Positions 1,921 to 25,770 of a stretch of 64,000 nucleotides of DNA are shown here, in pieces. Location: positions 1 through 64,000 of the forward strand of contig CALUIR010000012.1 of the NCBI GenBank assembly GCA_944320785.1. The letters run 5' to 3'. How positions within the stretch are numbered: the stretch's first letter is position 1; every line of letters begins with the position of its first letter. Both the position numbers and the translations under genes were made by a program. The notes beneath the pieces were generated by a model. That model was not told the origin of the DNA and searched no databases. It saw only the letters and a program-made list of their open reading frames with translations. This stretch comes from an uncultured Bacteroidaceae bacterium. Its GTDB lineage: Bacteria > Bacteroidota > Bacteroidia > Bacteroidales > Bacteroidaceae.

Positions 1921-2072
1921 CGAAAATGTTCTATGAACAATTCAAAAAACTTCCCGGAAGAATTCGAAAATCATTGGAATGATTTCTGAAATGTTCTAAG
2001 AAGATTTTGCGAAACCTTGAGAGGTTTTGCATGAAACCTTAGAAGGATTTTCAAAAACCTTTGGAAGGCTTT
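1921..2072. repeat. Tandem array of seven ~22-nt palindromic units with varying arms
   Basis: In the 600-nt gap between the divergent rpsU and etfB genes. Unit bounds are 1921-1942, 1943-1964, 1965-1985, 1986-2008, 2009-2028, 2029-2051 and 2052-2072. Each has A-rich left and T-rich right flanks (GAAA..TTTT) around a self-complementary core: TGTTC/GAACA, CTTCC/GGAAG, AATCATT/AATGATT, TTCT/AGAA, AAACCT/AGGTTT, CCTT/AAGG, CCTT/AAGG. The core differs between units but its two arms change together. It is not a CRISPR array because there are no spacers. No coding potential was seen here. The rest of the gap holds only the two promoters. Confidence 0.75.
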
Positions 2073-2146
2073 CATGCGGACAGGCGGCGCATGCCGGCAC
2101 GCTCACAAACGGAGCGCCACGCCCGTTATGCTTTTTTTTGACCTAG

Positions 2147-2181
2147 TTTGCCTCAAAGTCCCAATCGTTTGCTTAACTTTG
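2147..2181 (+). promoter_or_regulatory. Probable promoter of etfBA-acyl-CoA dehydrogenase operon
   Basis: A perfect -7 TAACTTTG at 2174-2181. The nearest -33-like TTTG (2147-2150) lies 23 nt upstream of it, longer than the preferred 19. The start would be near 2188, giving a leader of about 60 nt before etfB. Confidence 0.55.
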
Positions 2182-2248
2182 CGGAGAATATCCAAAACTT
2201 ATTGCCTGCCAATAATTAAATAACAACCAAGAATAAAAATCTATAAAC

Positions 2249-3121
2249 ATGAATCTGAAAATCGTTGTATTGGCAAAACAAGTGCCTGACACCCGTAACG
2301 TAGGGAAAGATGCCATGAAAGCCGACGGGACAATCAACCGCGCCGCTTTGCCTGCCATTTTTAACCCAGAAGACTTGAATGCCTTGGAGCAAGCGCTTCG
2401 CCTGAAAGACCAGTACCCCGGCTCCACTGTAACCATCCTGACCATGGGTCCGGGGCGTGCCGCCGACATCATTCGCGAAGGGTTGTTCCGGGGAGCAGAC
2501 AATGGCTATTTGCTAACAGATCGTGCCTTTGCCGGCGCCGACACGCTGGCCACATCCTATGCCTTGGCGACTGCCATCCGCAAAATCAAGGACTTCGACA
2601 TCATCATCGGGGGAAGGCAAGCCATTGATGGCGACACAGCACAAGTGGGGCCGCAGGTCGCCGAGAAACTCGGGCTGCCGCAAATCACTTACGCAGAAGA
2701 AATCCTCGGCATAAACAACGGGCGCATCACGGTGAAACGCCACATCGATGGAGGCGTGGAAACAGTGGAAGGGCCTCTGCCCATCGTGATTACCGTCAAC
2801 GGTTCCGCCGCCCCATGCCGCCCGCGCAACGCGAAATTAGTGCAGAAGTACAAACATGCCAAAACCGTCACCGAAAAGCAACAAGGCAATTTGGACTATA
2901 CTGAACTCTACAACAAGCGCGATTACCTCAACCTCGTGGAATGGAGTGTCACGGATGTCAACGGAGATACCGCGCAATGCGGCTTATCCGGCTCACCCAC
3001 CAAAGTAAAAACCATCCAGAACATCGTGTTCCAAGCCAAGGAAAGCAAAACCCTCCCTGCGGCCGACCGCGAAATAGAGGACCTTATCGTTGAACTTTTA
3101 GCGAACCACACAATCGGATAA
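2249..3121 (+). CDS. etfB: Electron transfer flavoprotein, beta subunit
   Basis: 290 residues matching EtfB/FixA. It starts MNLKIVVLAKQVPDTRNVGK, followed by the adenine-nucleotide-binding region with GPGRAADIIREGLFRGADNG and TSYALATAIRKI, then DIIIGGRQAIDGDTAQVGP. With EtfA it forms the FAD-containing heterodimer that takes electrons from acyl-CoA dehydrogenases. It is first in a three-gene operon: etfA starts 4 nt after its stop and the dehydrogenase follows. The N-terminal half is canonical. The C-terminal tail (EDLIVELLANHTIG) matches longer Bacteroidetes forms. Confidence 0.93.
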   Translation: MNLKIVVLAKQVPDTRNVGKDAMKADGTINRAALPAIFNPEDLNALEQALRLKDQYPGSTVTILTMGPGRAADIIREGLFRGADNGYLLTDRAFAGADTLATSYALATAIRKIKDFDIIIGGRQAIDGDTAQVGPQVAEKLGLPQITYAEEILGINNGRITVKRHIDGGVETVEGPLPIVITVNGSAAPCRPRNAKLVQKYKHAKTVTEKQQGNLDYTELYNKRDYLNLVEWSVTDVNGDTAQCGLSGSPTKVKTIQNIVFQAKESKTLPAADREIEDLIVELLANHTIG

Positions 3122-3125
3122 CATC

Positions 3126-4145
3126 ATGAACAATTTATTTGTATATTGCGAAATAGAAGAAGGGAACGTGGCAGACGTCAGCTTGGAACTGTTGACAAAA
3201 GGACGTTCGTTGGCCAACCAGTTGAACTGCCAGCTTGAAGCCATCGCGGCAGGCACGGGCTTGGAAGATATCGACAAACAAATCATCCCTTATGGAGTGG
3301 ACAGGCTGCACATCTTCGATGCACCGGGGCTTTACCCTTACACTTCCCTCCCCCATGCGTCCATATTAATCAACCTTTTCAAGGAAGAACAGCCGCAAAT
3401 ATGCCTGATGGGGGCAACCGTCATCGGGCGTGACTTGGGGCCGCGCGTGTCTTCAGCCCTGACAAGCGGACTTACCGCCGATTGCACCGCCTTGGAAATC
3501 GGCGACCATGAAGACAAAAAAGAAAACAAAGTCTATAAAAACCTGCTGTACCAGATACGCCCGGCCTTCGGAGGAAACATCGTAGCCACCATTGTCAACC
3601 CGGAACACCGCCCGCAAATGGCAACCGTGCGCGAAGGCGTCATGAAGAAGCAAATCCTTTCGCCGGACTATAAAGGGGAAATCATCCGCCATGAGGCAGG
3701 GAAATACGTCAACGACACGGATTTTGTAGTAAAAGTCATCGAACGCCATGTGGAGAAAGCGCAAAACAACCTGAAAGGCGCGCCGATTATCGTGGCAGGA
3801 GGCTATGGCGTAGGCTCAAAAGAAAACTTCCAGCTTCTTTTCGACTTGGCGAAAATTCTGAATGCAGAGGTCGGAGCCAGCCGCGCAGCCGTGGATGCAG
3901 GCTTCATTGAACATGACCGCCAAATCGGGCAGACAGGTATCACCGTACGCCCGAAGCTGTACATTGCCTGCGGCATATCCGGGCAGATACAGCATATTGC
4001 CGGCATGCAGGAAAGCTCCATGATTATCTCCATCAACAATGACCCCAACGCACCCATCAATGCCATTGCCGACTATGTCATCAACGGGACCGTGGAAGAT
4101 GTCATTCCTAAAATGATTAAGTATTACAAACAAAACAGCAAATAA
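3126..4145 (+). CDS. etfA: Electron transfer flavoprotein, alpha subunit
   Basis: 339 residues matching EtfA/FixB. The N-terminal domain contains LMGATVIGRDLGPRVSSAL. The C-terminal FAD-binding domain carries GASRAAVDAGFIEHDRQIGQTG, PKLYIACGISGQIQHIAGM and SSMIISINNDPNAPINAIADY, which hold the flavin. It sits 4 nt downstream of etfB and 3 nt upstream of the acyl-CoA dehydrogenase, so the three are almost certainly co-expressed and form one electron-transfer chain. No ETF:quinone oxidoreductase or Rnf gene is in the window, so the final acceptor is unknown. Confidence 0.93.
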   Translation: MNNLFVYCEIEEGNVADVSLELLTKGRSLANQLNCQLEAIAAGTGLEDIDKQIIPYGVDRLHIFDAPGLYPYTSLPHASILINLFKEEQPQICLMGATVIGRDLGPRVSSALTSGLTADCTALEIGDHEDKKENKVYKNLLYQIRPAFGGNIVATIVNPEHRPQMATVREGVMKKQILSPDYKGEIIRHEAGKYVNDTDFVVKVIERHVEKAQNNLKGAPIIVAGGYGVGSKENFQLLFDLAKILNAEVGASRAAVDAGFIEHDRQIGQTGITVRPKLYIACGISGQIQHIAGMQESSMIISINNDPNAPINAIADYVINGTVEDVIPKMIKYYKQNSK

Positions 4146-4148
4146 GAA

Positions 4149-5852
4149 ATGGCCAATTTTTATTTAGATACGCCGGAACTCAGGCATCACCTGAACCATC
4201 CGCTCATGAAAAGAATCGTCGAACTGAAAGAACGTGGATTCAAGGACAAGGACGAATATGATTATGCGCCCGTCGATTTTGAAGATGCCATGGACAGTTA
4301 CGACAAAGTGTTGGAAATCGTAGGGGAAATCTGCGGGGAAATCATTGCACCCAACGCTGAAGACGTGGACCACGAAGGGCCGGCCGTAGCCAACGGACGG
4401 GTCACTTATGCCAGCGGCACGCAGAAAAACCTGGATGCTGTCACCAAAGCCGGCCTGATGGGAGTGGCCATGCCGCGCCGATATGGCGGGCTGAACTTCC
4501 CTACCGTGCCTTACATCATGGCTGCCGACATCGTGTCGCGCAGCGATGCAGGCTTTGAAAACCTTTGGGGATTGCAAGACTGCGCCGAAACCCTCTATGA
4601 ATTTGGCAATGAAGACCAAAAGAAACGCTACATCACACGGGTTTGCCAAGGCGAAACCATGTCAATGGACCTGACAGAGCCAGACGCAGGCTCTGACCTC
4701 CAATCCGTCATGCTGAAGGCTACTTACAGCGAACAAGACCAATGCTGGTACCTCAACGGCGTGAAGCGTTTCATCACCAACGGCGATGCCGACATCCATC
4801 TGGTGCTTGCACGTTCGGAAGAAGGCACGCACGACGGGCGCGGCCTCTCCATGTTCATTTATGACAAGCGCAACGGGGGCGTCAACGTGCGCCGCATTGA
4901 GAACAAGATGGGCATCAAAGGTTCTCCCACCTGCGAATTGGTATTCAAGAACGCCAAAGCAGAACTTTGCGGCGACCGCAAATTAGGCTTGATAAAATAT
5001 GTCATGGCATTGATGAACGGCGCCCGCTTGGGCATTGCCGCACAATCCACCGGGCTGTCGCAAGCTGCCTATAATGAAGCATTGGCCTACGCGAAAGACC
5101 GCAAACAATTCGGCAAAGCCATCATCGAGTTTCCCGCCGTGGCCGAAATGCTGTCCATCATGAAAGCCAAATTAGACGCATCGCGCACCCTGCTGTATGA
5201 GACAGCACGCTATGTGGATATCTACAAAGCATTGGACGACATTGCCAAGGAACGCAAGCTGACGCCCGAAGAACGCCAGGAACAGAAACGGTATGCCAAG
5301 TTAGCAGATGCCTTCACCCCGCTGGCCAAAGGCATCGGAAGCGAGTTTGCCAACCAGAATGCCTACGACTGCATCCAGATACACGGAGGATCCGGGTTCA
5401 TGAAGGATTATGCCTGCGAAAGGATTTACCGCGATGCGCGCATCACCAGCATCTACGAAGGAACCACGCAACTGCAAGTCGTGGCGGCCATACGGTATGT
5501 CACCACAGGCGCATACTTGGCGCGCATCAAAGAACTGGAACAACAGAATGTTGCCCCTGAATTTGAAAGCCTCTTGAGCCGCTTGAAGGCCATGGGCGAG
5601 AAGTATGCGGAAGCCGTGACCAAAGTGGCCGACAGCAAAGACCAGGAACTGATTGACTTCACGGCAAGGAAATTGGTGGAAATGTCTGCCTACCTCATCA
5701 TGGGCCACCTGTTGCTGCAAGATGCCAGCAAGAATGCCATCTTCGCCAACTCCGCGCAAGTGTTCACACGCTTTGCCGAAGCCGAAGTGGAGAAGAACGC
5801 ATCGTTCATCGCCCGCTTCAGCAAAGACGACCTGGCTTACTACCGGAAATAA
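4149..5852 (+). CDS. Acyl-CoA dehydrogenase with C-terminal extension
   Basis: 567 residues, well above the ~380 of short-chain acyl-CoA dehydrogenases, because of an inserted helical segment and an extra C-terminal helical domain (about 450-567). Signatures: MDLTEPDAGSDLQSV for substrate/FAD binding, NGVKRFITNGDADIHLVLARS, GARLGIAAQSTGLSQAAYNEALAYAKDRKQFGK, IQIHGGSGFMKDY, and IYEGTTQLQ with the catalytic-base Glu. It oxidises acyl-CoA to enoyl-CoA and passes electrons to the adjacent EtfAB. The acyl substrate cannot be inferred; no thiolase, crotonase or hydroxyacyl-CoA dehydrogenase gene is nearby. Confidence 0.9.
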   Translation: MANFYLDTPELRHHLNHPLMKRIVELKERGFKDKDEYDYAPVDFEDAMDSYDKVLEIVGEICGEIIAPNAEDVDHEGPAVANGRVTYASGTQKNLDAVTKAGLMGVAMPRRYGGLNFPTVPYIMAADIVSRSDAGFENLWGLQDCAETLYEFGNEDQKKRYITRVCQGETMSMDLTEPDAGSDLQSVMLKATYSEQDQCWYLNGVKRFITNGDADIHLVLARSEEGTHDGRGLSMFIYDKRNGGVNVRRIENKMGIKGSPTCELVFKNAKAELCGDRKLGLIKYVMALMNGARLGIAAQSTGLSQAAYNEALAYAKDRKQFGKAIIEFPAVAEMLSIMKAKLDASRTLLYETARYVDIYKALDDIAKERKLTPEERQEQKRYAKLADAFTPLAKGIGSEFANQNAYDCIQIHGGSGFMKDYACERIYRDARITSIYEGTTQLQVVAAIRYVTTGAYLARIKELEQQNVAPEFESLLSRLKAMGEKYAEAVTKVADSKDQELIDFTARKLVEMSAYLIMGHLLLQDASKNAIFANSAQVFTRFAEAEVEKNASFIARFSKDDLAYYRK

Positions 5853-5865
5853 GCGCAAGGACAAA

Positions 5866-5926
5866 CATGCAAATAAAAGCGAATCCCGGCAGTGTCAGGC
5901 TGCCGGGATTCGCTTTTATTTGCATG
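5866..5926. terminator. Bidirectional terminator, 27-bp perfect stem
   Basis: Arms 5866-5892 and 5900-5926 are perfectly complementary over 27 bp with a 7-nt loop. The GC-rich inner stem CCCGGCAG/CTGCCGGG is flanked by AAATAAAAG/CTTTTATTT, so each strand ends in a T-rich run. It lies between the converging dehydrogenase and HIRAN genes. Confidence 0.9.
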
Positions 5927-5936
5927 CCTAACAAAA

Positions 5937-6275
5937 TCAGGCCTCGCGTTTCTTCAAATAAACAATCACGCTCACTTGTTCCTGAGGATGAAGTTCCGGC
6001 GCAAGCTGATTGACGCGGACATCAAAAATATCCGCATACCCCATATCCAACAACTTGCTTATCTCCACATTTTCCCCCTTCGGTATGAAACCCAATTTCT
6101 TATCTCCATAATAAATGGCCACCGCATAAGGGTCAAATGAGTTATTGGCTTCACGCTCCAACGTCAACACAGAGCCAATCTTCAGTTCGCTGAACGCAAT
6201 GCAACCTTCCCAATACGCAAAACCTGCAATATGGAAATCTGCAAAATGCATTAATTTTCTGTCTTTCTGTTCCAT
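5937..6275 (-). CDS. HIRAN domain protein
   Basis: 112 residues made of one HIRAN domain: FHIAGFAYWEGCIAFSELKIGSVL, then LEREANNSFDPYAVAIYYGDKKLGFIPKGEN, the conserved strand-turn region in which these domains recognise DNA ends in SNF2 helicases such as HLTF. In bacteria standalone HIRAN proteins are common and mostly uncharacterised. It sits 11 nt downstream of aroB on the same strand and is probably co-transcribed. A DNA-repair role is inferred from the family only. Confidence 0.82.
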   Translation of the reverse strand: MEQKDRKLMHFADFHIAGFAYWEGCIAFSELKIGSVLTLEREANNSFDPYAVAIYYGDKKLGFIPKGENVEISKLLDMGYADIFDVRVNQLAPELHPQEQVSVIVYLKKREA

Positions 6276-6286
6276 ACTCTATGCTT

Positions 6287-7342
6287 TTAGTTGCTTTCCC
6301 TATAAAAGTCAAGCATCTCGAAAATATCTTCTTTCGTGGCCTGCTGGTTGATGGCAATGTCGCCCACGTTGCGCAAAAGGGTGAAGTTGATTCGCCCGGC
6401 CTCGTTCTTCTTGTCGTGCGTCATCAGTTCGTAAAGGCGGTCGTATTGATGGCAATCGAACGGGAACATCCCGTAATGACCTTTAATGAAGGAAACGGTC
6501 TGACGCAACTTGTCCGCCGGGAATCCCAGGCGCACAGCCGACAGGTACAGTTCGCAGACAATGCCCCATGCCACCGCATAGCCATGCAACACGGGACAAC
6601 CGCGTTCCAATGCCAAGCTTTCGAATGCATGCCCTACGGTATGCCCCAGGTTCAACGCCTTGCGGATGCCTTGTTCGTGAGGATCTTTTTCCACAATCGC
6701 TTCCTTTATCCGGATAGATTGTGCCACCAAACCTTCCAACAATCCATAATCCACGTCTTCCAAATCAAAACGCAACAACTCTGCCCAATGCTTCTCTGTG
6801 CTGATAAGGCCATGCTTCAACATCTCTGCATAACCCGACAAAAGATTTTCCTCATCCAACGTCCGAAGAAACTCCGTGGACACCAACACGCAATCAGCCA
6901 GCGCGAATGTGCCGACTTCATTCTTCAAACCGTTGAAATTGATGCCGGTCTTGCCGCCCACAGCCGCATCCACCATTGCCAACAACGTGGTAGGGATATT
7001 CACAAAATGAATGCCACGCTTAAAAGTGGAAGCCGCAAAGCCGCCTAAGTCCGTGATCATTCCTCCACCGACATTCAACAACAATGAATGACGGCTGGCT
7101 CCTTGGCCGCTCAAGCCTGACCACACCTGCGACAAAGACTCCAAACCTTTATGCGCATCCCCTGCCCCGACCTGCAACACGGAAGCCTCAGCAACCTCCT
7201 TAATGAAGGAAAGAGACGGGAGGCAACAGGCAGAAGTATGTGCATCCACCAATACGAACAGCCGGTCATGCGGGATGCCGGATAAAACAGCGGCCATGGA
7301 TTTTTCCAAGTCCCCACAAACCACAATCCTTTGCGCACTCAT
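6287..7342 (-). CDS. aroB: 3-dehydroquinate synthase
   Basis: 351 residues (start MSAQRIVVCGDLEKS). It converts DAHP to 3-dehydroquinate in the shikimate pathway using NAD and a divalent metal. Visible motifs: GGGMITDLGGFAASTFKRGIHFVNIPTT, MVDAAVGGKTGIN and NLGHTVGHAFESLALERG, containing the metal-binding Glu/His set. The frame stays open to an ATG at 7471, but that extension is discounted because a perfect promoter (7365-7395) sits inside it. The protein is somewhat divergent at its N-terminus, as is usual for Bacteroides AroB. Confidence 0.92.
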   Translation of the reverse strand: MSAQRIVVCGDLEKSMAAVLSGIPHDRLFVLVDAHTSACCLPSLSFIKEVAEASVLQVGAGDAHKGLESLSQVWSGLSGQGASRHSLLLNVGGGMITDLGGFAASTFKRGIHFVNIPTTLLAMVDAAVGGKTGINFNGLKNEVGTFALADCVLVSTEFLRTLDEENLLSGYAEMLKHGLISTEKHWAELLRFDLEDVDYGLLEGLVAQSIRIKEAIVEKDPHEQGIRKALNLGHTVGHAFESLALERGCPVLHGYAVAWGIVCELYLSAVRLGFPADKLRQTVSFIKGHYGMFPFDCHQYDRLYELMTHDKKNEAGRINFTLLRNVGDIAINQQATKEDIFEMLDFYRESN

Positions 7343-7364
7343 CTGCTTCTTGACATTTAGAATA

Positions 7365-7395
7365 CAAACATACGCAAAAAACATAAAAAAGCAAA
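7365..7395 (-). promoter_or_regulatory. Bacteroidetes promoter of aroB
   Basis: Minus strand: -33 TTTG (7392-7395), 19-nt spacer, -7 TATGTTTG (7365-7372). A full consensus match. It places the start site near 7358 and so fixes the aroB start codon at 7342. Confidence 0.8.
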
Positions 7396-7425
7396 ATATT
7401 CCCGGCACATTCATTGCAAGATAAA

Positions 7426-7433
7426 TAACTTTG
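7426..7433 (+). promoter_or_regulatory. -7 element (TAACTTTG) for the 139-aa membrane protein gene
   Basis: TAACTTTG lies 28 nt before the ATG at 7462. No TTTG is found at the expected -33 distance, so only the -7 box supports this promoter. Confidence 0.45.
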
Positions 7434-7461
7434 CCTGCATGAATCCATAAATTGCATTCAA

Positions 7462-7881
7462 ATGAAAGCACTGTTGCCTCCTTATTGCCGCATCATGGGA
7501 TACATCATCCTGCTGGCATCCATTTTCGCGCCATTCGTCTTGGCGATGTTCCACCTCATTACGGACGAGAACCTGCTTCTGAGCAAAGAAAGTTTCAAAT
7601 TAGCCATGATGCTGGGATTGCTGATGATTCTGGCTGCGTATGCCAAAAACGAAAATGAAGAAACAGAACGAATCAGGATCAAGGCCATGCGCTACGCCGT
7701 GTTCATCACCGCCATCTACATTTTCATCAACATGGTGGTCGTGCTGCACAAAGGAGAGCCGTCGCTCATTCCTTCTTCCACGTTCCTTATATTCTTGGCC
7801 ATCAATGCCATCTGCCAAGAATTCGGCATCATCAAGGCATCCATTGACAAAATGTTCTTAAATAAAAAGAAGTGCCATTAA
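7462..7881 (+). CDS. Predicted four-helix membrane protein of unknown function
   Basis: 139 residues. Hydrophobic stretches at about 11-30 (MGYIILLASIFAPFVLAMF), 47-60 (MMLGLLMILAAY), 80-95 (YAVFITAIYIFINMVVV) and 106-120 (STFLIFLAINAIC) suggest four membrane helices, with a charged loop KNENEETERIRIKAM between the second and third. No enzymatic motif or known family was recognised. It is divergent from aroB and followed 49 nt later by an outer-membrane beta-barrel gene. Confidence 0.75.
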   Translation: MKALLPPYCRIMGYIILLASIFAPFVLAMFHLITDENLLLSKESFKLAMMLGLLMILAAYAKNENEETERIRIKAMRYAVFITAIYIFINMVVVLHKGEPSLIPSSTFLIFLAINAICQEFGIIKASIDKMFLNKKKCH

Positions 7882-7930
7882 ACTTTTGACATCATCTGCT
7901 GTCTATACGTGAAAACCTATTATTACAGGG

Positions 7931-10711: not shown

Positions 10712-10848
10712 ACGCCCCGCCTGCACCTGAGGGACAAAGCATCCGCCCCTGCCTTTCGCGCCGCATCCCTGCAAATGCCGCCGCCCGCGCTACATTGGCT
10801 TCCCCCAAACCACCCGCAACTCGCACCTATCCAACCGGGACAAACCCG

Positions 10849-10953
10849 CAATTTGACCCGTCAAAATCACAATTTGACCCGTCAAAATCACAATTCGACC
10901 CGTCAAAATCACAATTTGACCCGTCAAAATCACAATTTGACCCGTCAAAGCCG
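10849..10953. repeat. Five tandem 21-nt palindromic repeats (TTTGACCCGTCAAA core)
   Basis: In the 343-nt gap between the beta-barrel gene and cls, units start at 10849, 10870, 10891, 10912 and 10933, each exactly 21 nt apart. Every unit contains TTTGAC-CC-GTCAAA, a perfect dyad with 6-bp arms; the third has TTCGAC in the left arm. The period of 21 is a multiple of three, so it creates open frames on both strands, but these look like artefacts. The array lies 55 nt upstream of the cls -7 box. Nothing else recognisable fills the gap. Confidence 0.9.
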
Positions 10954-11007
10954 CCCGTCCACCCGCATAAATCCGCCACCTCGCGAAGAATATTCCGCAG
11001 ATTTTCC

Positions 11008-11015
11008 TAATTTTG
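11008..11015 (+). promoter_or_regulatory. -7 element (TAATTTTG) of cls
   Basis: TAATTTTG lies 39 nt before the cls ATG at 11055. There is no TTTG at the -33 distance; the palindromic array ends 55 nt upstream. Confidence 0.5.
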
Positions 11016-11054
11016 TGGCAAGCAACCCAAAGTAGCATCAAACGTTCAAAGAAG

Positions 11055-16115: not shown

Positions 16116-16185
16116 ACCTGCCCCTCCATTTGCCTGCATGGCCATGCCAAAACCGCATCCACACAAATGACACGCGGCTTCGTGC

Positions 16186-18807: not shown

Positions 18808-18849
18808 ATCTACTACGATCTAAACATCTATTAATATTACAAAAAAGGA

Positions 18850-18880
18850 TTTGCAAAGATAGTTCGTTTTATTATTTTTG
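18850..18880 (+). promoter_or_regulatory. Bacteroidetes promoter of the M23 peptidase gene
   Basis: -33 TTTG (18850-18853), 19-nt spacer, -7 TATTTTTG (18873-18880): a full consensus match. The start near 18887 supports the peptidase start codon at 18934 over one at 18892. Confidence 0.8.
18854..18861 (-). promoter_or_regulatory. -7 element (TATCTTTG) of alaS
   Basis: Minus-strand TATCTTTG lies 47 nt upstream of the alaS ATG and directly abuts the -33 box of the divergent promoter, so both promoters occupy the same DNA. The -33 match for alaS is poor. Confidence 0.55.
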
Positions 18881-18933
18881 TCGTCATCTATGTGCGAAAT
18901 ATTCACGGTTGCACATCAAAAACCATAAAAACG

Positions 18934-19902
18934 ATGCGTAAAGTTTACTATGTTTACAATCCCAAGACACAAACTTACAATCGGGTTTACCCCACTGCCA
19001 GGCAACGGATAGCCAGCCTTTTCCGACGCATAATGGCCGGCCTTTCCTTGGCTGCAGTGGCCTGCATTGCCTTATACTTATTCCTGGATACCCCTTCTGA
19101 AAAGAACCTCCGAAGCGAGAACTCCAAACTGCTGGCCCAATACAATGTCCTTTCCCGGCAATTGGATGAGGCCTTGAACGTGCTTCAAGACATCCAGCAA
19201 CGTGACGACAACCTGTACCGGGTCATCTTCATGGCCAACCCCATCCCGGAAAGCGTGCGCAATGCCGGATACAGGGGAACCAACCGTTACGAGCAACTGA
19301 TGCACATGGCCAATGCCGACCTTGTGGTCAACACCACCCAGAAGATGGACCTGCTGAACAGGCAACTTTACATCCAGTCGCGCTCTTTTGACGAAATCAT
19401 CAGCCTGTGCAAACAGCATGAAAAGATGCTGAAATGCATCCCCGCCATACAACCGGTGTCAAACAAAGACCTGAAGAAGACCGCCTCCGGCTACGGCACC
19501 CGCATCGACCCTATCTATGGAACCGCGCGCTTTCATCAAGGGATGGACTTTTCCGCGCCGCAAGGCACTGACATCTATGCAACAGGAGACGGCACAGTCG
19601 TCAAAGCCGGATGGGAAACAGGATATGGCAACACCGTAGAGATAGACCATGGATTCGGTTACCGCACCAAATACGCCCACATGAAAAAATACAAGGTGAG
19701 AAGGGGGCAGAAAGTCATCCGGGGGGAAGTCATCGGAGAGGTAGGCAACACCGGGAAAAGCACCGGCCCGCACCTTCATTATGAAGTGATTGTCAACGGC
19801 CGACACGTCAACCCCGTGAATTACTATTTCATGGACCTAAGCGCCGAAAGTTATGACAAGATGATTCAGTTAGCCGCCAACCACGGGAAAATGCTCGATT
19901 AA
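18934..19902 (+). CDS. M23 family metallopeptidase (membrane-anchored, coiled coil)
   Basis: 322 residues. A cytoplasmic basic N-terminus (RKVYYVYNPKTQTYNRVYP) and one membrane helix (about 36-54) are followed by a coiled coil (SENSKLLAQYNVLSRQLDEALNVLQDI). A LytM/M23 domain follows with zinc ligands in FHQGMDFSAP (His and Asp) and HLHYEV. These enzymes cleave peptidoglycan cross-links or regulate amidases in division and wall growth. Start set by the promoter at 18850. The MerR gene begins 4 nt after the stop, so they probably form an operon. Confidence 0.9.
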   Translation: MRKVYYVYNPKTQTYNRVYPTARQRIASLFRRIMAGLSLAAVACIALYLFLDTPSEKNLRSENSKLLAQYNVLSRQLDEALNVLQDIQQRDDNLYRVIFMANPIPESVRNAGYRGTNRYEQLMHMANADLVVNTTQKMDLLNRQLYIQSRSFDEIISLCKQHEKMLKCIPAIQPVSNKDLKKTASGYGTRIDPIYGTARFHQGMDFSAPQGTDIYATGDGTVVKAGWETGYGNTVEIDHGFGYRTKYAHMKKYKVRRGQKVIRGEVIGEVGNTGKSTGPHLHYEVIVNGRHVNPVNYYFMDLSAESYDKMIQLAANHGKMLD

Positions 19903-19905
19903 CCC

Positions 19906-20259
19906 ATGTCTGCTATGCCTGCCCCATCGGAACAGAACGTGAAACTATATTATTCCATCCGCGAAGTCGCACGGATGTTCAACGTCAATGAATCATTGAT
20001 TCGTTTTTGGGAGAAAGAATTCCCGGACATTCATCCGCAACGCAATGCCAAAGGCACCCGCCAATACCGGAAAGAAGACATCGAAAGCATCAAGCTCGTT
20101 TATCATTTGGTGAAAGAAAAGGGAATGACCTTGGACGGCGCGCGCAAAAGGCTGAAAGACAACAAAAGGAAATCCGCCCGGACATTAGAAGTCATCGAAC
20201 GGCTGAAAAGCATCAAAGAAGAACTCATGGAAATGAAAAAGGAACTGGATGCCATTTGA
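19906..20259 (+). CDS. MerR family transcriptional regulator
   Basis: 117 residues. The winged HTH of MerR is at about 12-80 (KLYYSIREVARMFNVNESLIRFWEKEFPDIHPQRNAKGTRQYRKEDIESI), followed by a short coiled coil (RTLEVIERLKSIKEELMEMKKEL) for dimerisation. There is no C-terminal ligand domain and no metal-binding cysteine, so it resembles the short RacA/HTH_17-type members common in Bacteroidetes. Only 3 nt separate it from the M23 gene, suggesting co-expression. The regulon is unknown. Confidence 0.88.
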   Translation: MSAMPAPSEQNVKLYYSIREVARMFNVNESLIRFWEKEFPDIHPQRNAKGTRQYRKEDIESIKLVYHLVKEKGMTLDGARKRLKDNKRKSARTLEVIERLKSIKEELMEMKKELDAI

Positions 20260-20289
20260 CCGGCATCCGCCCCCTCTTTTTCCCACAGG

Positions 20290-20820
20290 TCACATGGCCT
20301 GGTTGTACACATTCGCATAAATCCCGCGCTTCACCTCCTCCTCGCCGGGGACAGGGCATCCCAAATCATTCACCATCAGGTACAATGACAATGATTTCCC
20401 TCCCGGACGGTAAGCGGGCTGAAGATAATCCTTGGCAAACAAACGGTAACCGGCCCTTTCATAAAAGCCAATCCGCCGTCGGCTCATCTCGTCTTGCGGA
20501 AGTTCCACCTCCAAGACAACCGGCATGTCCCAAGTCTCCTGCAGGCATTCCAACACTTTCCGCCCATATCCTCCGTTCCGATGTTCCGGCGAAATGGCCA
20601 AATGCTCTATATAATAGAAGCCCGGCAGTTTCCAATATGCCAATATGCCGACAAGATTCCCGTCCTGCAAAATCACATTATTGGAAAACAACGGATTGCA
20701 ATCCGTATTCCTGCGCTGTTCTGCCAAATCCCGGTATTCATCCTCCGGGAAAGCCGTTTGCAGCAAACGTTCTGCAAAGCCATACTCCGAATCCTCCGTG
20801 TGAATTTCCTTCAATTCCAT
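20290..20820 (-). CDS. GNAT family N-acetyltransferase
   Basis: 176 residues. The acetyl-CoA-binding segment (IEHLAISPEHRNGGYGRKVLECL, with the R/QxxGxG/A-type loop NGGYGR) is at about 77-95. The later strand-helix (RRRIGFYERAGYRLF) is the usual GNAT motif B. The substrate is unknown. A perfect promoter lies just upstream; the gene is transcribed alone, convergent with the MerR gene. Confidence 0.88.
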   Translation of the reverse strand: MELKEIHTEDSEYGFAERLLQTAFPEDEYRDLAEQRRNTDCNPLFSNNVILQDGNLVGILAYWKLPGFYYIEHLAISPEHRNGGYGRKVLECLQETWDMPVVLEVELPQDEMSRRRIGFYERAGYRLFAKDYLQPAYRPGGKSLSLYLMVNDLGCPVPGEEEVKRGIYANVYNQAM

Positions 20821-20849
20821 TTATACTGTCCTTTTATGGGTTATGTCCG

Positions 20850-20880
20850 CAAAAATACTTTTTCTTATCCATACCGCAAA
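20850..20880 (-). promoter_or_regulatory. Bacteroidetes promoter of the GNAT gene
   Basis: Minus strand: -33 TTTG (20877-20880), 19-nt spacer, -7 TATTTTTG (20850-20857). Full consensus; the start would be near 20843. Confidence 0.8.
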
Positions 20881-21059
20881 CAAGAAGAAAAGAAATGTGC
20901 CGCATGCTCCTTCCATGCTTCCTGCAGGACAAGAAGTGAGCCACAAAAACAGGCCAAGACTTCCGCATGCGGCAAAAGCGACAGGCACAGGATGCAAAAT
21001 GGGCCGGGGCATCGGAACTTTTTTTGTCAGCACGCATTCCGTTTTTATCCGAATATGAC

Positions 21060-21067
21060 TATTTTTG
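21060..21067 (+). promoter_or_regulatory. -7 element (TATTTTTG) of the Lrp/AsnC gene
   Basis: TATTTTTG lies 32 nt before the ATG at 21100. No consensus -33. Confidence 0.5.
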
Positions 21068-21099
21068 CAGCGATTATCGAATTATAAGTGCATCACAAA

Positions 21100-21576
21100 A
21101 TGAGAAATTACCAATTGAGCCCGTTGGATCTGCAAATCCTGAAACTGATTGCCAACGATGCAAGGATTCCCTTCCTGGAAGTGGCAAGAGCCTGCAACGT
21201 ATCAGGCGCCGCTATCCACCAGCGGATACAAAAGCTGACGAGCCTGGGCGTGCTGAAAGGCACGGAATATGTGATTGACCCGGAAAAGATAGGCTACGAG
21301 ACATGCGCCTATATCGGCCTGTACCTGAAGAATCCTGAACAATTCGACCACGTGATGGACGAACTGAGAAAGATGCCGGAAGTCGTGGAATGCCATTTCA
21401 CCACCGGGCAATACGACATGTTCATCAAAATATACGCCAAGAACAACCATCATCTGCTCAGCATCATCCATGACAAGCTGCAGCCATTGGGGCTTTCGCG
21501 CACGGAGACACTGATATCTTTCCACGAAGCCATCAAGCGCCAGATACCCGTCAGCGATAAGGAAGACGGGCTATAA
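21100..21576 (+). CDS. Lrp/AsnC family transcriptional regulator
   Basis: 158 residues from ATG (MRNYQLSPLDLQILKLIAND); a GTG 12 nt upstream (21088) is in frame but less likely. The HTH is FLEVARACNVSGAAIHQRIQKLTSLGVLKG and the RAM ligand domain begins about residue 60 (YETCAYIGLYLKNPEQFDHV; VVECHFTTGQYDMFIKIYA). Such proteins form octamers that sense amino acids or other small molecules. Targets are unknown. A perfect 11-bp hairpin follows the stop. Confidence 0.9.
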   Translation: MRNYQLSPLDLQILKLIANDARIPFLEVARACNVSGAAIHQRIQKLTSLGVLKGTEYVIDPEKIGYETCAYIGLYLKNPEQFDHVMDELRKMPEVVECHFTTGQYDMFIKIYAKNNHHLLSIIHDKLQPLGLSRTETLISFHEAIKRQIPVSDKEDGL

Positions 21577-21581
21577 GCCCT

Positions 21582-21619
21582 GGCATCCCATGCCTTTCCT
21601 GCGGGAACCATGGGATGCC
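21582..21619 (+). terminator. Hairpin after the Lrp gene
   Basis: GGCATCCCATG (21582-21592) pairs perfectly with CATGGGATGCC (21609-21619), 5 nt after the stop, with a 16-nt loop. It lacks a T-run, so it may be a 3'-end stabiliser or a weak terminator. Confidence 0.45.
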
Positions 21620-21741
21620 CCGCCCGCGCTTTCGCAAATAATCTCCCGTTTAACAGCAAAAAAGCACCGCATAAGCATCAAAACCTACGGATTAATCCGT
21701 TTGCGCCATTTTCATGCCTTCCAAGTATCTTTCCCTTTCAC

Positions 21742-21749
21742 TACTTTTG
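21742..21749 (+). promoter_or_regulatory. -7 element (TACTTTTG) of a candidate small RNA
   Basis: TACTTTTG in the Lrp-thyA gap (348 nt). It predicts a start near 21756, exactly where the first stem of the candidate RNA begins. No clear -33 box. A lone 14-bp palindrome ACGGATTAATCCGT (21687-21700) lies 41 nt upstream. Confidence 0.4.
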
Positions 21750-21755
21750 CCCTTG

Positions 21756-21893
21756 AAATAACACAGCACATATTGATATATTAAATTTCTTATCGCTCTC
21801 TCTGTTATTTGAAAACGGGCGCAATAACGCAGAGGCTGCAGGATGCCCGACAAAAAAAGATGCAAGCGCGGCTTACGTGCTTGCATCTTTTTT
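21756..21893 (+). ncRNA. Candidate structured small RNA or thyA leader
   Basis: About 138 nt between a -7 box and an intrinsic terminator. Three stems are visible. AAATAACA (21756-21763) pairs with TGTTATTT (21803-21810). CGGGC (21816-21820) pairs with GCCCG (21845-21849). The terminator stem is at 21859-21867/21879-21887. It has no convincing open frame. It either ends before thyA as an independent RNA or works as an attenuating leader. The family is not recognised; it does not look like tmRNA, SRP RNA or RNase P RNA. Confidence 0.4.
21852..21893 (+). terminator. Intrinsic terminator upstream of thyA
   Basis: GATGCAAGC/GCTTGCATC stem, extended by an A-run/T-run pair, with TTTTTT at 21888-21893. 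The thyA -7 box begins 3 nt later. Confidence 0.8.
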
Positions 21894-21895
21894 CA

Positions 21896-21903
21896 TACTT
21901 TTG
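21896..21903 (+). promoter_or_regulatory. -7 element (TACTTTTG) of thyA-folA
   Basis: TACTTTTG lies 21 nt before the thyA ATG. Its -33 region falls inside the terminator stem and shows no TTTG. Confidence 0.45.
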
Positions 21904-21924
21904 CCATACAAAAGCTGGATGGCC

Positions 21925-22719
21925 ATGAAACAATACTTAGACTTGCTGCGACACGTGCTTGAACACGGCACGCGCAAAGAAGACCGCACAGGCACAGGCA
22001 CCGTCAGCACGTTCGGATACCAGATGCGTTTCCGGATGGATGATGGCTTCCCCTGCCTCACGACCAAGAAATTGCACTTGAAATCCATCATCCACGAGTT
22101 GCTTTGGTTCCTAAAGGGCGACACCAACGTGCATTATTTGCAGGAAAACGGCGTGAGGATATGGAACGAATGGGCAGACGAAAACGGCGACCTCGGCCAT
22201 ATATACGGCTACCAATGGCGCTCATGGCCCGACTACGACGGAGGACACATTGACCAGATCCAGGAAGCAGTGCGCCAAATCAAGGAAACACCGGATTCAC
22301 GCAGAATCATCGTCAGCGCATGGAACGTGGCCGACCTCGGGAAGATGAATCTTCCGCCCTGCCACGTCTTGTTCCAATTTTACGTGGCCGACGGGCGGCT
22401 CAGCCTGCAACTCTACCAACGCAGCGCGGACATCTTCCTGGGCGTACCGTTCAACATCGCGTCCTACGCCCTGCTCCTCCTGATGATGGCGCAAGTCACC
22501 GGGCTGCAGCCGGGCGATTTCATCCACACCTTGGGCGACGCGCACATCTACCTGAACCACATCGACCAAGTAAAACTGCAACTCACCCGCGAACCCCGCC
22601 CGCTGCCGCAAATGCTCCTCAACCCGGAACGGAAGGACTTGCTCAGCTTCGAATACAATGATTTCCAACTCATCCACTACAACCCCCACCCGCACATTGC
22701 GGGAAAAGTGTCCGTATGA
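21925..22719 (+). CDS. thyA: Thymidylate synthase
   Basis: 264 residues, the same length as E. coli ThyA. Motifs: [19 protein letters not shown] (folate/phosphate loop), [16 protein letters not shown], the catalytic Cys in [40 protein letters not shown], and [11 protein letters not shown]. It makes dTMP from dUMP with methylene-tetrahydrofolate, producing dihydrofolate. Start chosen at MKQYLDLL; the frame is open to 21877 but that runs through the terminator and promoter. It overlaps folA by 4 nt (ATGA). Confidence 0.97.
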
Positions 22720-23216
22720 CCATGCACATCTCCATCATCGCAGCCTTGGCGCTCAACCGCGCCATCGGGCATGAGAACCGCCTCCTCTACCATCTGCCCG
22801 ACGACATGAAGCGTTTCAAAGCCCTCACCACAGGACACACGGTCGTCATGGGGCGGAAAACATTCGAATCGCTCCCCAAAGGCGCCTTGCCCAACCGCCG
22901 CAACATCGTCCTTACCCGGCAGGACATGCGCTTCGAAGGCGCGGAAACCTGCCACTCCCTGGAAGAAGCACTCAGCCGCTGCGGCGCGGAAGAAGAAGTG
23001 TTCATCATCGGCGGGGCGGAGATTTACCGCCAAAGCATCGGCATGGCGCAAAGGATGCATCTCACCCTCGTGCATGACAGCCCGGAGGAAGCCGATGCCT
23101 TCTTCCCTCCCATCGACCCGGAGCAATGGGCGGAAGAAAGCAAGGAATGCCACCCGGCCGACGAGAAGCACCGCTACCCCTGCGACTTCATCTGCCTGGC
23201 AAGGAAAAAGCAATAA
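22716..23216 (+). CDS. folA: Dihydrofolate reductase
   Basis: 166 residues. Motifs: [29 protein letters not shown] (active-site Asp in LPDDMKRFK), [21 protein letters not shown] for NADPH, and [14 protein letters not shown]. It regenerates tetrahydrofolate from the dihydrofolate made by ThyA; the ATGA overlap implies translational coupling of the two. Nothing unusual in the motifs. The downstream 169 nt hold a hairpin and the start of the ECF operon. Confidence 0.96.
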
Positions 23217-23310
23217 CAAGCACGGCCAGCGGCAAAACAGCTTCCGCAAAGCAGGCAGGCGGGAACTTAAAAAAATGCAAAAAGGCAGGCGCACGTTTTA
23301 CTTTTCCGCC

Positions 23311-23334
23311 CTTTGCCGGTCTATCCGGCAAAAG
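23311..23334 (+). terminator. Hairpin between folA and the ECF sigma operon
   Basis: CTTTGCCGG (23311-23319) pairs with CCGGCAAA (23325-23332) around a 5-nt loop. There is no T-run after it. It could terminate folA transcription poorly or lie in the leader of the next operon. Confidence 0.4.
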
Positions 23335-23385
23335 GCGTCCCAAAAGGACTGCCTGGGAAAGTGAAACATCAAAAACAACCACATC

Positions 23386-23589
23386 ATGAAAACAAAAATC
23401 CTGCTGACGGCCAGCGCCATCTTTCTTTGCTGCTCCTGCACCGTACACCAACATGCGCCACGCCCGCACCGCCACCCGCACCGCCATCACCATCATCACT
23501 TGGCGGAAGCCATGCAGGAGAGGCCGGCGTTGCAAGCCTGCGCTTTTTGGAATGCCTTGCAGGAAGCCCCCACATGCCGTGCCTTATGA
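23386..23589 (+). CDS. Small His-rich lipoprotein upstream of an ECF sigma factor
   Basis: 67 residues. A signal peptide (MKTKILLTASAIFLCCSC) has a plausible lipobox ending at the third Cys. It is followed by ten His within 18 residues (HQHAPRPHRHPHRHHHHH) and two more Cys near the C-terminus. The stop overlaps the sigma-factor start as ATGA (23586-23589), so the two are likely translationally coupled. The function is unknown; the His cluster and envelope location suggest metal binding (Zn, Ni, Cu). It could be a spurious frame, but the combination of signal, lipobox and coupling argues against that. Confidence 0.6.
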   Translation: MKTKILLTASAIFLCCSCTVHQHAPRPHRHPHRHHHHHLAEAMQERPALQACAFWNALQEAPTCRAL

Positions 23590-24128
23590 CAGGGGAAGAC
23601 AAAGACATCCTGTCCATCCTCCAAAGGAACAGCGAGAAAGGTTTCCGCCTGTTGATGGGAAAGTACCAGGAACCGATCTATTGGCACATCCGGCGGCTCG
23701 TCGTGTCGCACGATGACGCACAGGACGCAACCCAGGAAACATTCGTGCGCGTGTTCCGCAACCTGGGGCAAGTCAAGAAGAAAGATTCTTTCGCCGCATG
23801 GATATACCGCATCGCGACCAACGAAGCTTTCCGCATCTTGGACGCACGCAAGGCAGAAACCATGGACTTGGACGCCAGCCAAGAAAACATAAAAAGCCTC
23901 ATGGCGGATGAATATGTTGACTACTCAGACTTGGAGACCGTGAGATTGCAGGAAGCCATCCTGTCGCTGCCCCCAAAGCAGCAACTGGCTTTCAACTTGC
24001 GGTACTACGACGAACTGGGATACGAAGACATCGCCGGCATCATCGGCGCCACAGCCGCCAGCGCGAAAGCAAACTACCATATCGCCAAGGAAAAAATCAT
24101 TGCATACATGAATAACCACAGTGAATGA
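23586..24128 (+). CDS. RNA polymerase ECF-type sigma-70 factor
   Basis: 180 residues. Sigma region 2 is at about 20-85 (FRLLMGKYQEPIYWHIRRLVVSHDDAQDATQETFVRVFRNL, then FAAWIYRIATNEAFRIL) and region 4 at about 120-175 (LPPKQQLAFNLRYYDELGYEDIAGIIGATAASAKANYHIAKEKI). There is no region 3, as expected for ECF factors. The ATG at 23586 (MTGEDKDILS) is chosen because it overlaps the upstream lipoprotein stop; an alternative ATG at 23574 exists. The anti-sigma-like gene starts 2 nt after the stop, so it is held by a membrane anti-sigma factor and released by an envelope signal (inference). Confidence 0.9.
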   Translation: MTGEDKDILSILQRNSEKGFRLLMGKYQEPIYWHIRRLVVSHDDAQDATQETFVRVFRNLGQVKKKDSFAAWIYRIATNEAFRILDARKAETMDLDASQENIKSLMADEYVDYSDLETVRLQEAILSLPPKQQLAFNLRYYDELGYEDIAGIIGATAASAKANYHIAKEKIIAYMNNHSE

Positions 24129-24129
24129 C

Positions 24130-24465
24130 ATGGGAAAAGATTATGACCTCAGCAAAATCGGGAAACGGATGCCCTACAAAGTGCCGGAAGGCTTCTTCAA
24201 GGAAATGGAAGAAAGAATATGGGAAGAAACCGGCCATGCCCCGGCTGTCCCCGCCCCCAACAGGCGCGCCATCCTGCCTGCCGCCTTGAAATGGGCCATG
24301 GCAACAGCCGCCATCGCCGCATTGCTCTTCCTCGCCAACCTGCATCCATCCAAGGACAATGCCGGAAGCCTCACCCGCATCGAGGAAGCATACGAACGCC
24401 TGAGCATGGAGGACCAGGCGCACATGCTCGAAATATACCAAGAAGACCTATTTATAAACCATTAA
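24130..24465 (+). CDS. Probable anti-sigma factor, single-pass membrane protein
   Basis: 111 residues. The cytoplasmic N-terminal part (YDLSKIGKRMPYKVPEGFFKEMEERIWEET) is typical of small Bacteroides anti-sigma proteins. One membrane helix (about 58-73, WAMATAAIAALLFLA) is followed by a short periplasmic tail with EEAYERLSMEDQAHMLEIYQEDLF. There is no zinc-binding ZAS motif. A GTG at 24121 overlapping the sigma stop is an alternative start. Its place between an ECF sigma gene and a periplasmic CpxP/Spy-like gene supports the call. Confidence 0.75.
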   Translation: MGKDYDLSKIGKRMPYKVPEGFFKEMEERIWEETGHAPAVPAPNRRAILPAALKWAMATAAIAALLFLANLHPSKDNAGSLTRIEEAYERLSMEDQAHMLEIYQEDLFINH

Positions 24466-24477
24466 AAAGGAAACATC

Positions 24478-24918
24478 ATGAAAAAGTTATTGGGAACCAT
24501 CCTTTTCATCGCGGCAATGGCCGCTTACAGCAACGGGCTGCATGCCCAAAGCAATGAACAGCGCATGACGCGCGAACAACTGGCGGAAACACAGGCGCGC
24601 CACATTGCCGACGAACTGGCCATGGACGACGCCACAAGCGAAAAGTTCGTCGCAACCTACTGCCAGTTCCAAAAAGAATTATGGCAACTCGGTCCTCGCC
24701 AGAAGGGCCATCGGCCCCAGACAGAGGCGGAAACGAAGGAAGCCATCAACGAGCATTTTGAACACAGCCAGAAAATACTGGACTTGCGGAAGAAATACTA
24801 CGCCATCTACAGTGAGTTCCTCACCCAGAAGCAAATCCAGAAGGTGTACGAAACAGAAAGGGACATCATGAAGCACTTGAGAAACCGCGCCCCCATGCGC
24901 CCCGGGAAGCGGCCATAA
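24478..24918 (+). CDS. Periplasmic helical protein, Spy/CpxP-like
   Basis: 146 residues. A signal peptide (about 1-24, ending GLHAQ) precedes an all-helical, charge-rich domain with RMTREQLAETQARHIADELAMDDATSEKFVATYCQFQKELW and FLTQKQIQKVYETERD. The latter resembles the LTxxQ repeats of Spy/CpxP envelope-stress chaperones. It follows the anti-sigma gene by 12 nt as the last gene of the operon and is probably a target of the sigma factor. A signal-sensing role similar to CpxP is possible. Confidence 0.72.
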   Translation: MKKLLGTILFIAAMAAYSNGLHAQSNEQRMTREQLAETQARHIADELAMDDATSEKFVATYCQFQKELWQLGPRQKGHRPQTEAETKEAINEHFEHSQKILDLRKKYYAIYSEFLTQKQIQKVYETERDIMKHLRNRAPMRPGKRP

Positions 24919-24968
24919 TGGGAAGCGGCAGGGCAAAACGGGAAAAATGAAGAAAACCAACGGCGAGA

Positions 24969-24992
24969 GGATAGTTTCTCCTCCAACTATCC
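24969..24992 (+). terminator. Intrinsic terminator of the ECF sigma operon
   Basis: GGATAGTT (24969-24976) and AACTATCC (24985-24992) form an 8-bp stem with an 8-nt loop, followed by TTTT. It lies 50 nt after the Spy-like gene. Confidence 0.7.
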
Positions 24993-25012
24993 TTTTGCCG
25001 GCTTTTGCCGTT

Positions 25013-25477
25013 TTACTTCATGATGCCGAAGATGGAAGTGTCGCCCCGTTTCCCTTCCGAGACACTGCCGTTCAATGTGCCGTTCACCAGCGCTTTCTTG
25101 AGCGTTTCCTCGTCAGCCTTGCGGAAGTTCTTGTAAACAGCCGGGTAGCCCGTCACGGTCACCATCTTGACCTTGCGGCTGAACAAGCCCGTGCGCTGCA
25201 CCACCGCCCGCTGCGTTTCCAGCAGCACATCGCCGCCGCCATTGGCGCGCAACGCCTCGCTGATGGCCGCATTCACGCAATTCTCCAAACCACCTTTGCG
25301 CACCTCGCGCGTAGGCATCAGGGAATACGTGATTTTCTCCGAAGAGACTTCCAAGTCGGCAAACGCGGCAGCGGCGACAGGCGCCGTCACATCACGCACG
25401 GAAGCCGTGCGGTAAACCGTGGAACACGAAGTCATGGCCAGGGCGGCCACCGACAAAACCAAAACAATTTTCTTCAT
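25013..25477 (-). CDS. Lipoprotein of unknown function
   Basis: 154 residues. A signal peptide with lipobox (MKKIVLVLSVAALAMTSC, Cys 18) precedes a region containing FADLEVSSEKITYSLMPTREVRKGGLENCVNAAISEALRANGGGDVLLETQRAVVQ. This gives a beta-alpha pattern resembling small envelope proteins that handle promiscuous ligands. No known catalytic motif. Monocistronic, minus strand, convergent with the ECF operon. Confidence 0.75.
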   Translation of the reverse strand: MKKIVLVLSVAALAMTSCSTVYRTASVRDVTAPVAAAAFADLEVSSEKITYSLMPTREVRKGGLENCVNAAISEALRANGGGDVLLETQRAVVQRTGLFSRKVKMVTVTGYPAVYKNFRKADEETLKKALVNGTLNGSVSEGKRGDTSIFGIMK

Positions 25478-25558
25478 TTTTTAATATGGTTAATAGGCTC
25501 AATACTCATATCACACGCCAGGAGCCCGTTCTGAAGTGCCGTTCTTGTGTTTCGAATG

Positions 25559-25566
25559 CAAAAATA
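25559..25566 (-). promoter_or_regulatory. -7 element (TATTTTTG) of the lipoprotein gene
   Basis: Minus-strand TATTTTTG, 82 nt upstream of the ATG at 25477. No consensus -33 box. Confidence 0.4.
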
Positions 25567-25709
25567 ATGCAAATCTGATTAAAAAGAAATTTTCAACCGA
25601 AAAACGGCATGCAATGCCCGGAAATAGCTTGCAAAGGGAAAAAACCAAAAGGAAAATCCGTTACATATCCATGCAAGGGCCGCGCATTGCCTAATGGAAC
25701 GTACCCAAT

Positions 25710-25770
25710 ACGATTAGTAATCGTACACGCTTACGATTAGTAATCGTCAGGCGATACGATTACTAATCGT
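25710..25770. repeat. Three 15-bp perfect palindromes spaced 23 nt apart
   Basis: ACGATTAGTAATCGT at 25710-25724 and 25733-25747, and ACGATTACTAATCGT at 25756-25770. Each is a dyad of 7-bp arms around one base. The spacing is exactly 23 nt start to start, and the 8-nt linkers differ. In the 514-nt gap between pit and the lipoprotein gene. Apart from the pit terminators and one -7 box, nothing else is visible in this gap. Confidence 0.9.

Follow-up and report, generated by a model that had tools for sequence, protein, structure and literature searches.

The window analysed here, a 64,000-nucleotide (nt) stretch of DNA from an uncultured Bacteroidaceae bacterium, contains three intergenic arrays of tandem palindromes, designated arrays A, B and C, which belong to array families that recur across the host genome. 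Within most of these families the palindromic units, or dyads, lie at a fixed pitch, and in a sister species the position of an array is commonly kept while its palindrome has changed. With moderate confidence, we interpret the arrays as multi-dyad sites of dimeric DNA-binding proteins, nucleoid-organising or promoter-proximal in nature, whose recognition sequence turns over.

In the host draft genome (G000; 2,571,181 bases in 50 contigs, 84% complete), the window corresponds to contig C12. An ETF beta protein 93% identical to its Bacteroides luti counterpart places the host within or close to Bacteroidaceae. The sister species used for comparison (G001) belongs to the same genus and is also a draft, about 85% complete; long homologous blocks of the two genomes are mostly 80-89% identical. 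The three arrays are as follows.

1926 to 2073, unstranded: array A, seven non-identical dyads counted by eye, pitch about 19-23 nt
10852 to 10949, unstranded: array B, five 14-nt palindromes TTYGACCCGTCAAA, pitch exactly 21 nt
25710 to 25770, unstranded: array C, three 15-nt palindromes with arms ACGATTA and TAATCGT around a G or C centre (ACGATTASTAATCGT), pitch exactly 23 nt

Array A is built of two motif types, GTTCnnnGAAC and AAACCTTnnnAAGGTTT, and five of its seven dyads are chained by our dyad detector; array B comprises four copies of TTTGACCCGTCAAA and one of TTCGACCCGTCAAA; array C carries both orientations of its centre on the same strand. An earlier note on this DNA had described three palindromic arrays and none in the polysaccharide utilisation locus (PUL), and both statements are borne out. 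Scanning the window for the five families defined below (A-E) recovered no array besides A, B and C, and therefore none in the PUL. Tandem Repeats Finder (TRF) lists other short tandem repeats in the window.

Array families and their counterparts in a sister species

The dyad detector operates on crude intergenic DNA and reports chains of at least three dyads with at least six of seven arm pairs and centres 19-24 nt apart. Across the first 200,000 bases of each of contigs C1 and C2 of G000 it found 11 chains, against one in ten shuffles together (mean 0.1), which is the enrichment over shuffled intergenic DNA that the earlier note had proposed as a test. Seven of these chains are C or D arrays; on visual inspection the remaining four resemble chance matches or other hairpins. 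When all stretches scanned are considered, some of which were picked for holding hits, the counts are 25 chains against 0.3 by shuffle in G000 and 11 against 0.3 in G001. Genome G023, with three of its stretches chosen for hits, gave 5 against 0.2, and 80 loci of other relatives gave 11 against 2.4. Twenty stretches (352,576 bases) of other family genomes yielded a single chain, with 1.0 expected by chance.

The families were delimited only once the data had been seen. Family B, TTTGACCCGTCAAA, has 11 exact copies at five G000 loci, each with more units spaced at 21 nt; family C, ACGATTASTAATCGT, has 112 exact copies in G000; family D, which lies outside the window, is ATCYTYARSYTRARGAT with 164 exact copies in G000. 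Reversed controls gave 0 for all three. Family E, TAAACTnnnAGTTTA, occurs chiefly in G001 and also at one G000 locus, and DNA resembling array A is found at many loci of G001. The proposal that the window samples a recurrent genomic system thus holds, palindromes of families C and D being present by the hundred. A family-based scan of 672,517 bases (contigs C1, C2 and C3 and the window) identified 16 C, 14 D, 9 A and 3 B/E arrays, where the A count is an upper bound, as the A-type scan (at least two dyads) was without its own control and includes chance hits. Composite arrays are frequent, with C followed by A-type dyads and B followed by E.

Further palindromes were observed at other loci. 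Dyads resembling GTAAAATnnnnATTTTAC adjoin C and A arrays at L097:1285-1331 and L198 near 16,600, possibly as one more family, and tandem GATACGTATC dyads with a spacing of about 22 nt lie some 200 nt away from a C array (L212:6312-6378). In G001, GGTACTCGCAGTACC dyads constitute a further palindrome family, with seven units chained at about 23 nt (L132:11365-11503), and CCCTATAGGG dyads recur at about 22 nt (L125:19639-19683).

Fourteen G000 arrays of families B, C and D could be placed in G001, and an array is present at 13 of these places. As a yardstick, about one third of G000 gaps of at least 120 nt carry an array (49 arrays, 141 gaps), which gives p = 6e-6 for the shared places, a rough value computed after the data had been seen. 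Both B loci, including window array B, hold an E array in G001, with TAAACTnnnAGTTTA in place of TTTGACCCGTCAAA; in the reverse direction, two of five mapped G001 E-type loci match B. At six of seven C loci the G001 place holds a C array in which the centre between ACGATTA and TAATCGT has changed from S (G/C) to W (A/T), and the counterpart of window array C has A/T at all three centres. One of these six has a single C unit in G000, another has two good units in G001, and the seventh C locus holds only A-type dyads in G001. Among the five D loci (ATCYTYARSYTRARGAT), three G001 places hold, by eye, one unrelated 21-nt family and one holds five GCAACnnnnGTTGC dyads (C11:34652-34926, L222). Arrays at the same loci with new palindromes, a second test suggested in the earlier note, were thereby found in a related genome. 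The change of C centres holds throughout the stretches examined, where all 55 centres in G000 are G/C (28 G, 27 C) and all 30 in G001 are A/T (17 T, 13 A).

One A-type array (G000 C1:54865) was not counted among the orthologues, since the DNA that holds it is the same in the two drafts over 700 bases. This stretch, G000 C1:54401-55100 (L098), is 100% identical to part of G001 contig C29 (L236), which means recent transfer or mixed binning.

Geometry, sequence variation and a proposed protein partner

Array geometry is rigid. Intervals between C units are 23 nt in 36/36 cases in G000 and 18/18 in G001, although the spacers vary, and D intervals are 21 nt in 51/51, with four units in 16 of 18 D arrays. 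No indel was found in any C or D interval measured. Dyads span 14-17 bp and the gaps between them 4-9 nt. The term 'helically phased', used in the earlier note, suits the 21-nt families and does not obviously suit those fixed at 23 nt.

Sequence variation within D arrays is also constrained. Pairwise comparison of the 16 four-unit arrays, with the four centres excluded, gave 1795 transitions and 0 transversions. Spacer bases matched in 733 comparisons and mismatched in 707, so that the letter is near random, and the purine or pyrimidine class never changed. The D search pattern named purine or pyrimidine at variable positions (at most two substitutions per unit), which somewhat biases the count within units and leaves the spacers, outside the pattern, unbiased. 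The 12 bases beyond the array on the tail side show 201 transitions and 244 transversions; for the 12 bases that precede it on the leader side the counts are 346 and 301. This transition-only limit ends at the array edge and so stems from the array rather than from the local mutation spectrum. Pyrimidine-purine steps of the D consensus fall in dyad and spacer, whose centres are about 10.5 nt apart, a placement that would favour wrapping. The two arms of the D dyad vary independently: positions 4 and 14 combine as 20 CG, 20 TG, 15 CA and 14 TA (Fisher p = 1.0), and pairs 6-12 and 8-10 show no covariation (p 0.31 and 0.67), while other D pairs vary too little to tell. Such independence speaks against an RNA stem and is in keeping with double-stranded DNA whose half-sites are read separately. 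A-type arms in G000 are complementary in 45 cases, with 27.1 expected.

Arrays of the same architecture occur in named Bacteroides. Pairs of AACATSSSSATGTT at 23 nt number 41 in B. salyersiae DSM 18765, 10 in an uncultured Bacteroides, 8 in B. fragilis S82, 6 in B. ihuae and 1 in B. stercorirosoris (five of 18 genomes; control 0). The pair pattern imposes one 23-nt interval; without such a constraint on the others, six distinct arrays have 23 nt in each of their three intervals. Eight arrays have four units each (a count in which the 23-nt step is imposed), and no B. salyersiae locus exceeds three consecutive exact pairs, that is, four exact units. When the 16 flanks of these eight arrays (up to 250 nt, both orientations) were compared, a single 13-nt match was found at E <= 0.1, and mean identity over the inner 60 nt was 0.31 against 0.28 expected, which argues against the copying of one element. 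The palindrome extends beyond the unit, with a constant A two bases outside the array in 16/16 cases and, within spacers, T at position 2 in 20/24 and A at position 8 in 22/24. On the largest B. salyersiae scaffold, 13 of 15 loci lie beyond 1.94 Mb of 3.08 Mb (Kolmogorov-Smirnov p = 0.0006, a test picked after looking and with origin and terminus not placed). The dnaA gene is on another scaffold than most arrays, and a dif-like pattern had no match in three genomes.

Rows of dimeric proteins agree best with the fixed pitch, the small unit number that varies little, the dyads without covariation, the flanks that are unrelated where tested, and the places kept while the palindrome changes. Each array, in most cases a 14-17-bp palindrome repeated three to five times at a family-fixed pitch of 21 or 23 bp, would be occupied by a row of dimers with neighbours touching, one sequence-specific DNA-binding protein serving each family. 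Touching dimers would constrain spacing and leave the spacer sequence mostly free. The likeliest role would be in organising the chromosome or in promoter-proximal insulation, rather than in controlling a single regulon, because scores of intergenic arrays lie beside functionally unrelated genes. Palindrome change at kept places could arise if the specificity of a protein shifts, or if one protein family replaces another. We infer the binding, its cooperativity, its role and the cause of turnover from these sequence patterns.

Elements that keep place and geometry while their sequence changes jointly at many loci are hard to explain, and such concerted change points to a fast-evolving trans-acting partner. 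More tentatively, and at somewhat less than even probability, we suggest a chromosome-wide marking system of Bacteroidales, in which several array and DNA-binding-protein pairs operate in parallel in each genome, with fixed rows of three to five dyads, the family palindrome exchanged in concert at fixed places between sister species, and one family read largely as purine versus pyrimidine. Such reading implies recognition by DNA shape or wrapping, not by base letters, for which family D, with its transition-only variation, serves as a natural experiment. If proteins do bind the arrays, chromosome organisation in Bacteroidales becomes directly testable, because the same architecture is present in the culturable species B. 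salyersiae and B. fragilis.

Distribution, neighbouring genes and alternative explanations

Several results weigh against the binding interpretation. One of the five mapped D loci has no array in G001, and three of the five mapped E-type loci have none in G000. The genome-wide C palindromes of G000 include 7 exceptions to the G/C centre (112 of 119 conform), and the 33/33 A/T centres in whole G001 are those among the matches listed (33 of 76). A-type arms in G001 are complementary in only 70 cases against 66.4 expected. The C arrays of G000 do not avoid convergent genes (3/19, one of them window array C, since reassigned). The AACATSSSSATGTT pair pattern was not found in 13 of the 18 Bacteroides genomes searched, and unit number is not fixed within a species, as a locus of this type has three alleles in 50 B. 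fragilis isolates (PMC7585543). A binding protein was not found, no systematic search having been made. Finally, D arrays share leader and tail modules that also stand next to C and A arrays, a sharing typical of mobile elements, and the strict D pair is patchy, with 84, 11 and 3 copies in three of 301 family genomes, from three genera, which suits horizontal spread.

These last two features, with the dispersed intergenic copies, are what would be expected of the strongest alternative, which we judge unlikely overall: non-autonomous mobile elements with a tandem-repeat core, similar to BrickBuilt and mobilised by a transposase in trans, shared positions being old insertions. Two D arrays read in genome G117 likewise consist of four units between inverted AAAGTTT and AAACTTT ends; terminal repeats and target duplications were inspected by eye only. 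Against such elements, the flanks of the eight Bacteroides arrays are unrelated, G001 keeps the place and not the palindrome, and a transposase search confined to the Y1 family had no match in G000 or G001 (each about 85% complete). Mobile origin and binding function may also both hold, a spread element serving as a binding row.

Family C is known from G000, G001 and one copy in G027, and was not found in 58 other genomes searched. Carriage by phage was rejected, as the C-pair and B-pair patterns, the only two searched, had no match in viral contigs, and carriage of one B. salyersiae array by a plasmid was rejected for want of a match. Tandem palindromes at about 21-23 nt were also seen in Candidatus Azobacteroides (GAAGTACGTACTTC, L084:4924-4993) and Tannerellaceae (CGCCATATGGCG, L067:22-66), and the array architecture may be order-wide. 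Genome G009, of another genus, contains dispersed elements in which dyads resembling AAACAATATTGTTT stand around TTTGACGCGTCAAA at a distance of about 22 nt from each other (L091, L093, L094, L095).

A second alternative, to which we assign a low probability, is that of ordinary operators, each family being the regulon of one transcription factor with clustered sites. All three window arrays have a TAnnTTTG box nearby, which we take to be the Bacteroidales promoter box, at the distances that the earlier note had given for its -7 boxes.

2174 to 2181, plus strand: TAnnTTTG box TAACTTTG, 102 nt beyond array A
11008 to 11015, plus strand: TAnnTTTG box TAATTTTG, 59 nt beyond array B
25559 to 25566, minus strand: TAnnTTTG box TATTTTTG, 142 nt from array C and upstream of the minus-strand gene 25016-25477

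Array A is upstream of an ETF-domain gene at 2249, and array B is upstream of a PLDc-domain (cardiolipin-synthase-like) gene. The crude open reading frames around array C looked convergent. The minus-strand frame 25016-25477 is 95% identical to its G001 counterpart, and the overlapping plus-strand frame has stops in G001; the box was assigned to the minus-strand gene for this reason, and the array is now placed upstream of it. A phage-integrase/Xer-type recombinase gene (490-1389, minus strand) faces array A, and in G001 the sequences homologous to either side of this array are found on separate contigs.

Gene orientation, for which the calls around arrays are crude, also fits operators, in that D, A and B/E arrays of the G000 sample never lie between convergent genes (0/30, background 20/141). 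The corresponding G001 values are 0/10 for A, 0/5 for B/E and 2/12 for C, with a background of 23/134. Gene function speaks the other way. Pfam profiles were applied to 39 of 64 array-facing crude genes (25 of 26 beside D, 14 of 22 beside C) and ten window proteins. Array-facing genes are mixed, including sigma-70, a topoisomerase subunit, NuoF-type, methylmalonyl-CoA mutase, phosphoenolpyruvate carboxykinase (PEPCK), glycosidases and outer-membrane proteins, and 11 of the 39 had no Pfam match at the cut-offs used. A function common to array neighbours was rejected, none being seen in this set. The many loci of each family, and the swapping of whole palindrome families between sister species, are likewise difficult to reconcile with operators. 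The earlier suggestion of many regulators may still apply, without a shared function of the adjoining genes to support it. Beside one C array, a gene (L196:5187-5621, plus strand) matches positions 1-132 of the 366-position AccI restriction endonuclease profile and is probably truncated.

The earlier note had offered arrays of RNA hairpins as one option. We consider it quite improbable that the arrays are transcribed into such hairpins, which would work on mRNA or as RNA processing products. Complementary arms could form short stems in DNA or RNA. This explanation was rejected as the main one because D arms vary independently, with 20 TG and 15 CA cells at pair 4-14; moreover, C centres occur in both orientations on one strand, RNA does not need invariant spacing, and some arrays sit between divergent genes. 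Least probable of all is a functionless mutational by-product, in which slippage copies the unit and template switching keeps the palindromes perfect: unit number does differ among B. fragilis isolates at one locus (PMC7585543), but the same palindrome recurs at many unlinked loci, with unrelated flanks where tested, C and D intervals measured are free of indels, and transition-only variation ends at the array edge.

Comparison with known systems

Among the literature matches listed, as far as titles and abstract openings go, no such arrays are described apart from BrickBuilt and a B. fragilis marker. BrickBuilt, a miniature inverted-repeat transposable element (MITE) of Porphyromonas gingivalis, is one 23-nt repeat family of 1 to 22.8 units with IS5-like terminal repeats (PMC4596501). 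It comes from the same bacterial order, its tandem repeats are intergenic and scattered over the genome, and some positions are common with P. gulae (PMC4596501). The arrays described here share the dispersed, intergenic tandem repeats of 20-odd nt, and leader and tail likeness is present around D arrays and absent in the eight Bacteroides arrays. They differ in that one genome carries several palindrome families, that most arrays comprise three to five units, and that the palindrome has changed at orthologous loci; by word search, 'palindrome' is absent from the text of the BrickBuilt paper (PMC4596501).

Repetitive extragenic palindromes (REP) and bacterial interspersed mosaic elements (BIME) are also high-copy intergenic palindromes, often clustered, and are 20-40 bp long with GTAG or CGTC tags (PMC3733652, PMC2817692), whereas our dyads span 14-17 bp at a fixed 21- or 23-nt pitch. 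REP mobilisation by a REP-associated tyrosine transposase (RAYT) was rejected, as the Y1 transposase profile PF01797 had 0 matches in G000 and G001 at their completeness of about 85%; the same profile matched in 10 of the 21 genomes covered. Of the exact C-family units, 36 of 53 in G000 and 6 of 23 in G001 have CGTC on one side or both, which is therefore not a constant REP-type end in this family.

The B. fragilis marker is TR1, a variable-number tandem repeat used for typing, with four non-coding copies of AACATCCGGATGTTTTAATATAT (PMC7585543). This unit belongs to the Bacteroides AACATSSSSATGTT family; palindromy, a genome-wide family and a fixed architecture are not mentioned in the portion of that report at hand (PMC7585543). 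Clustered regularly interspaced short palindromic repeats (CRISPR) have repeats of 24-48 bp and long unique spacers, unlike the pitch of 21 or 23 nt and dyad gaps of 4-9 nt seen here (cas genes were not searched).

A possible functional parallel is offered by dispersed chromosome-organising sites such as matS, parS and those of Noc, where dimeric DNA-binding proteins recognise single dyads whose sequence is conserved. As with these, the arrays place short palindromes at many positions, where dimeric proteins would bind. Rather than single conserved dyads, however, they are rows of dyads whose sequence turns over between species.

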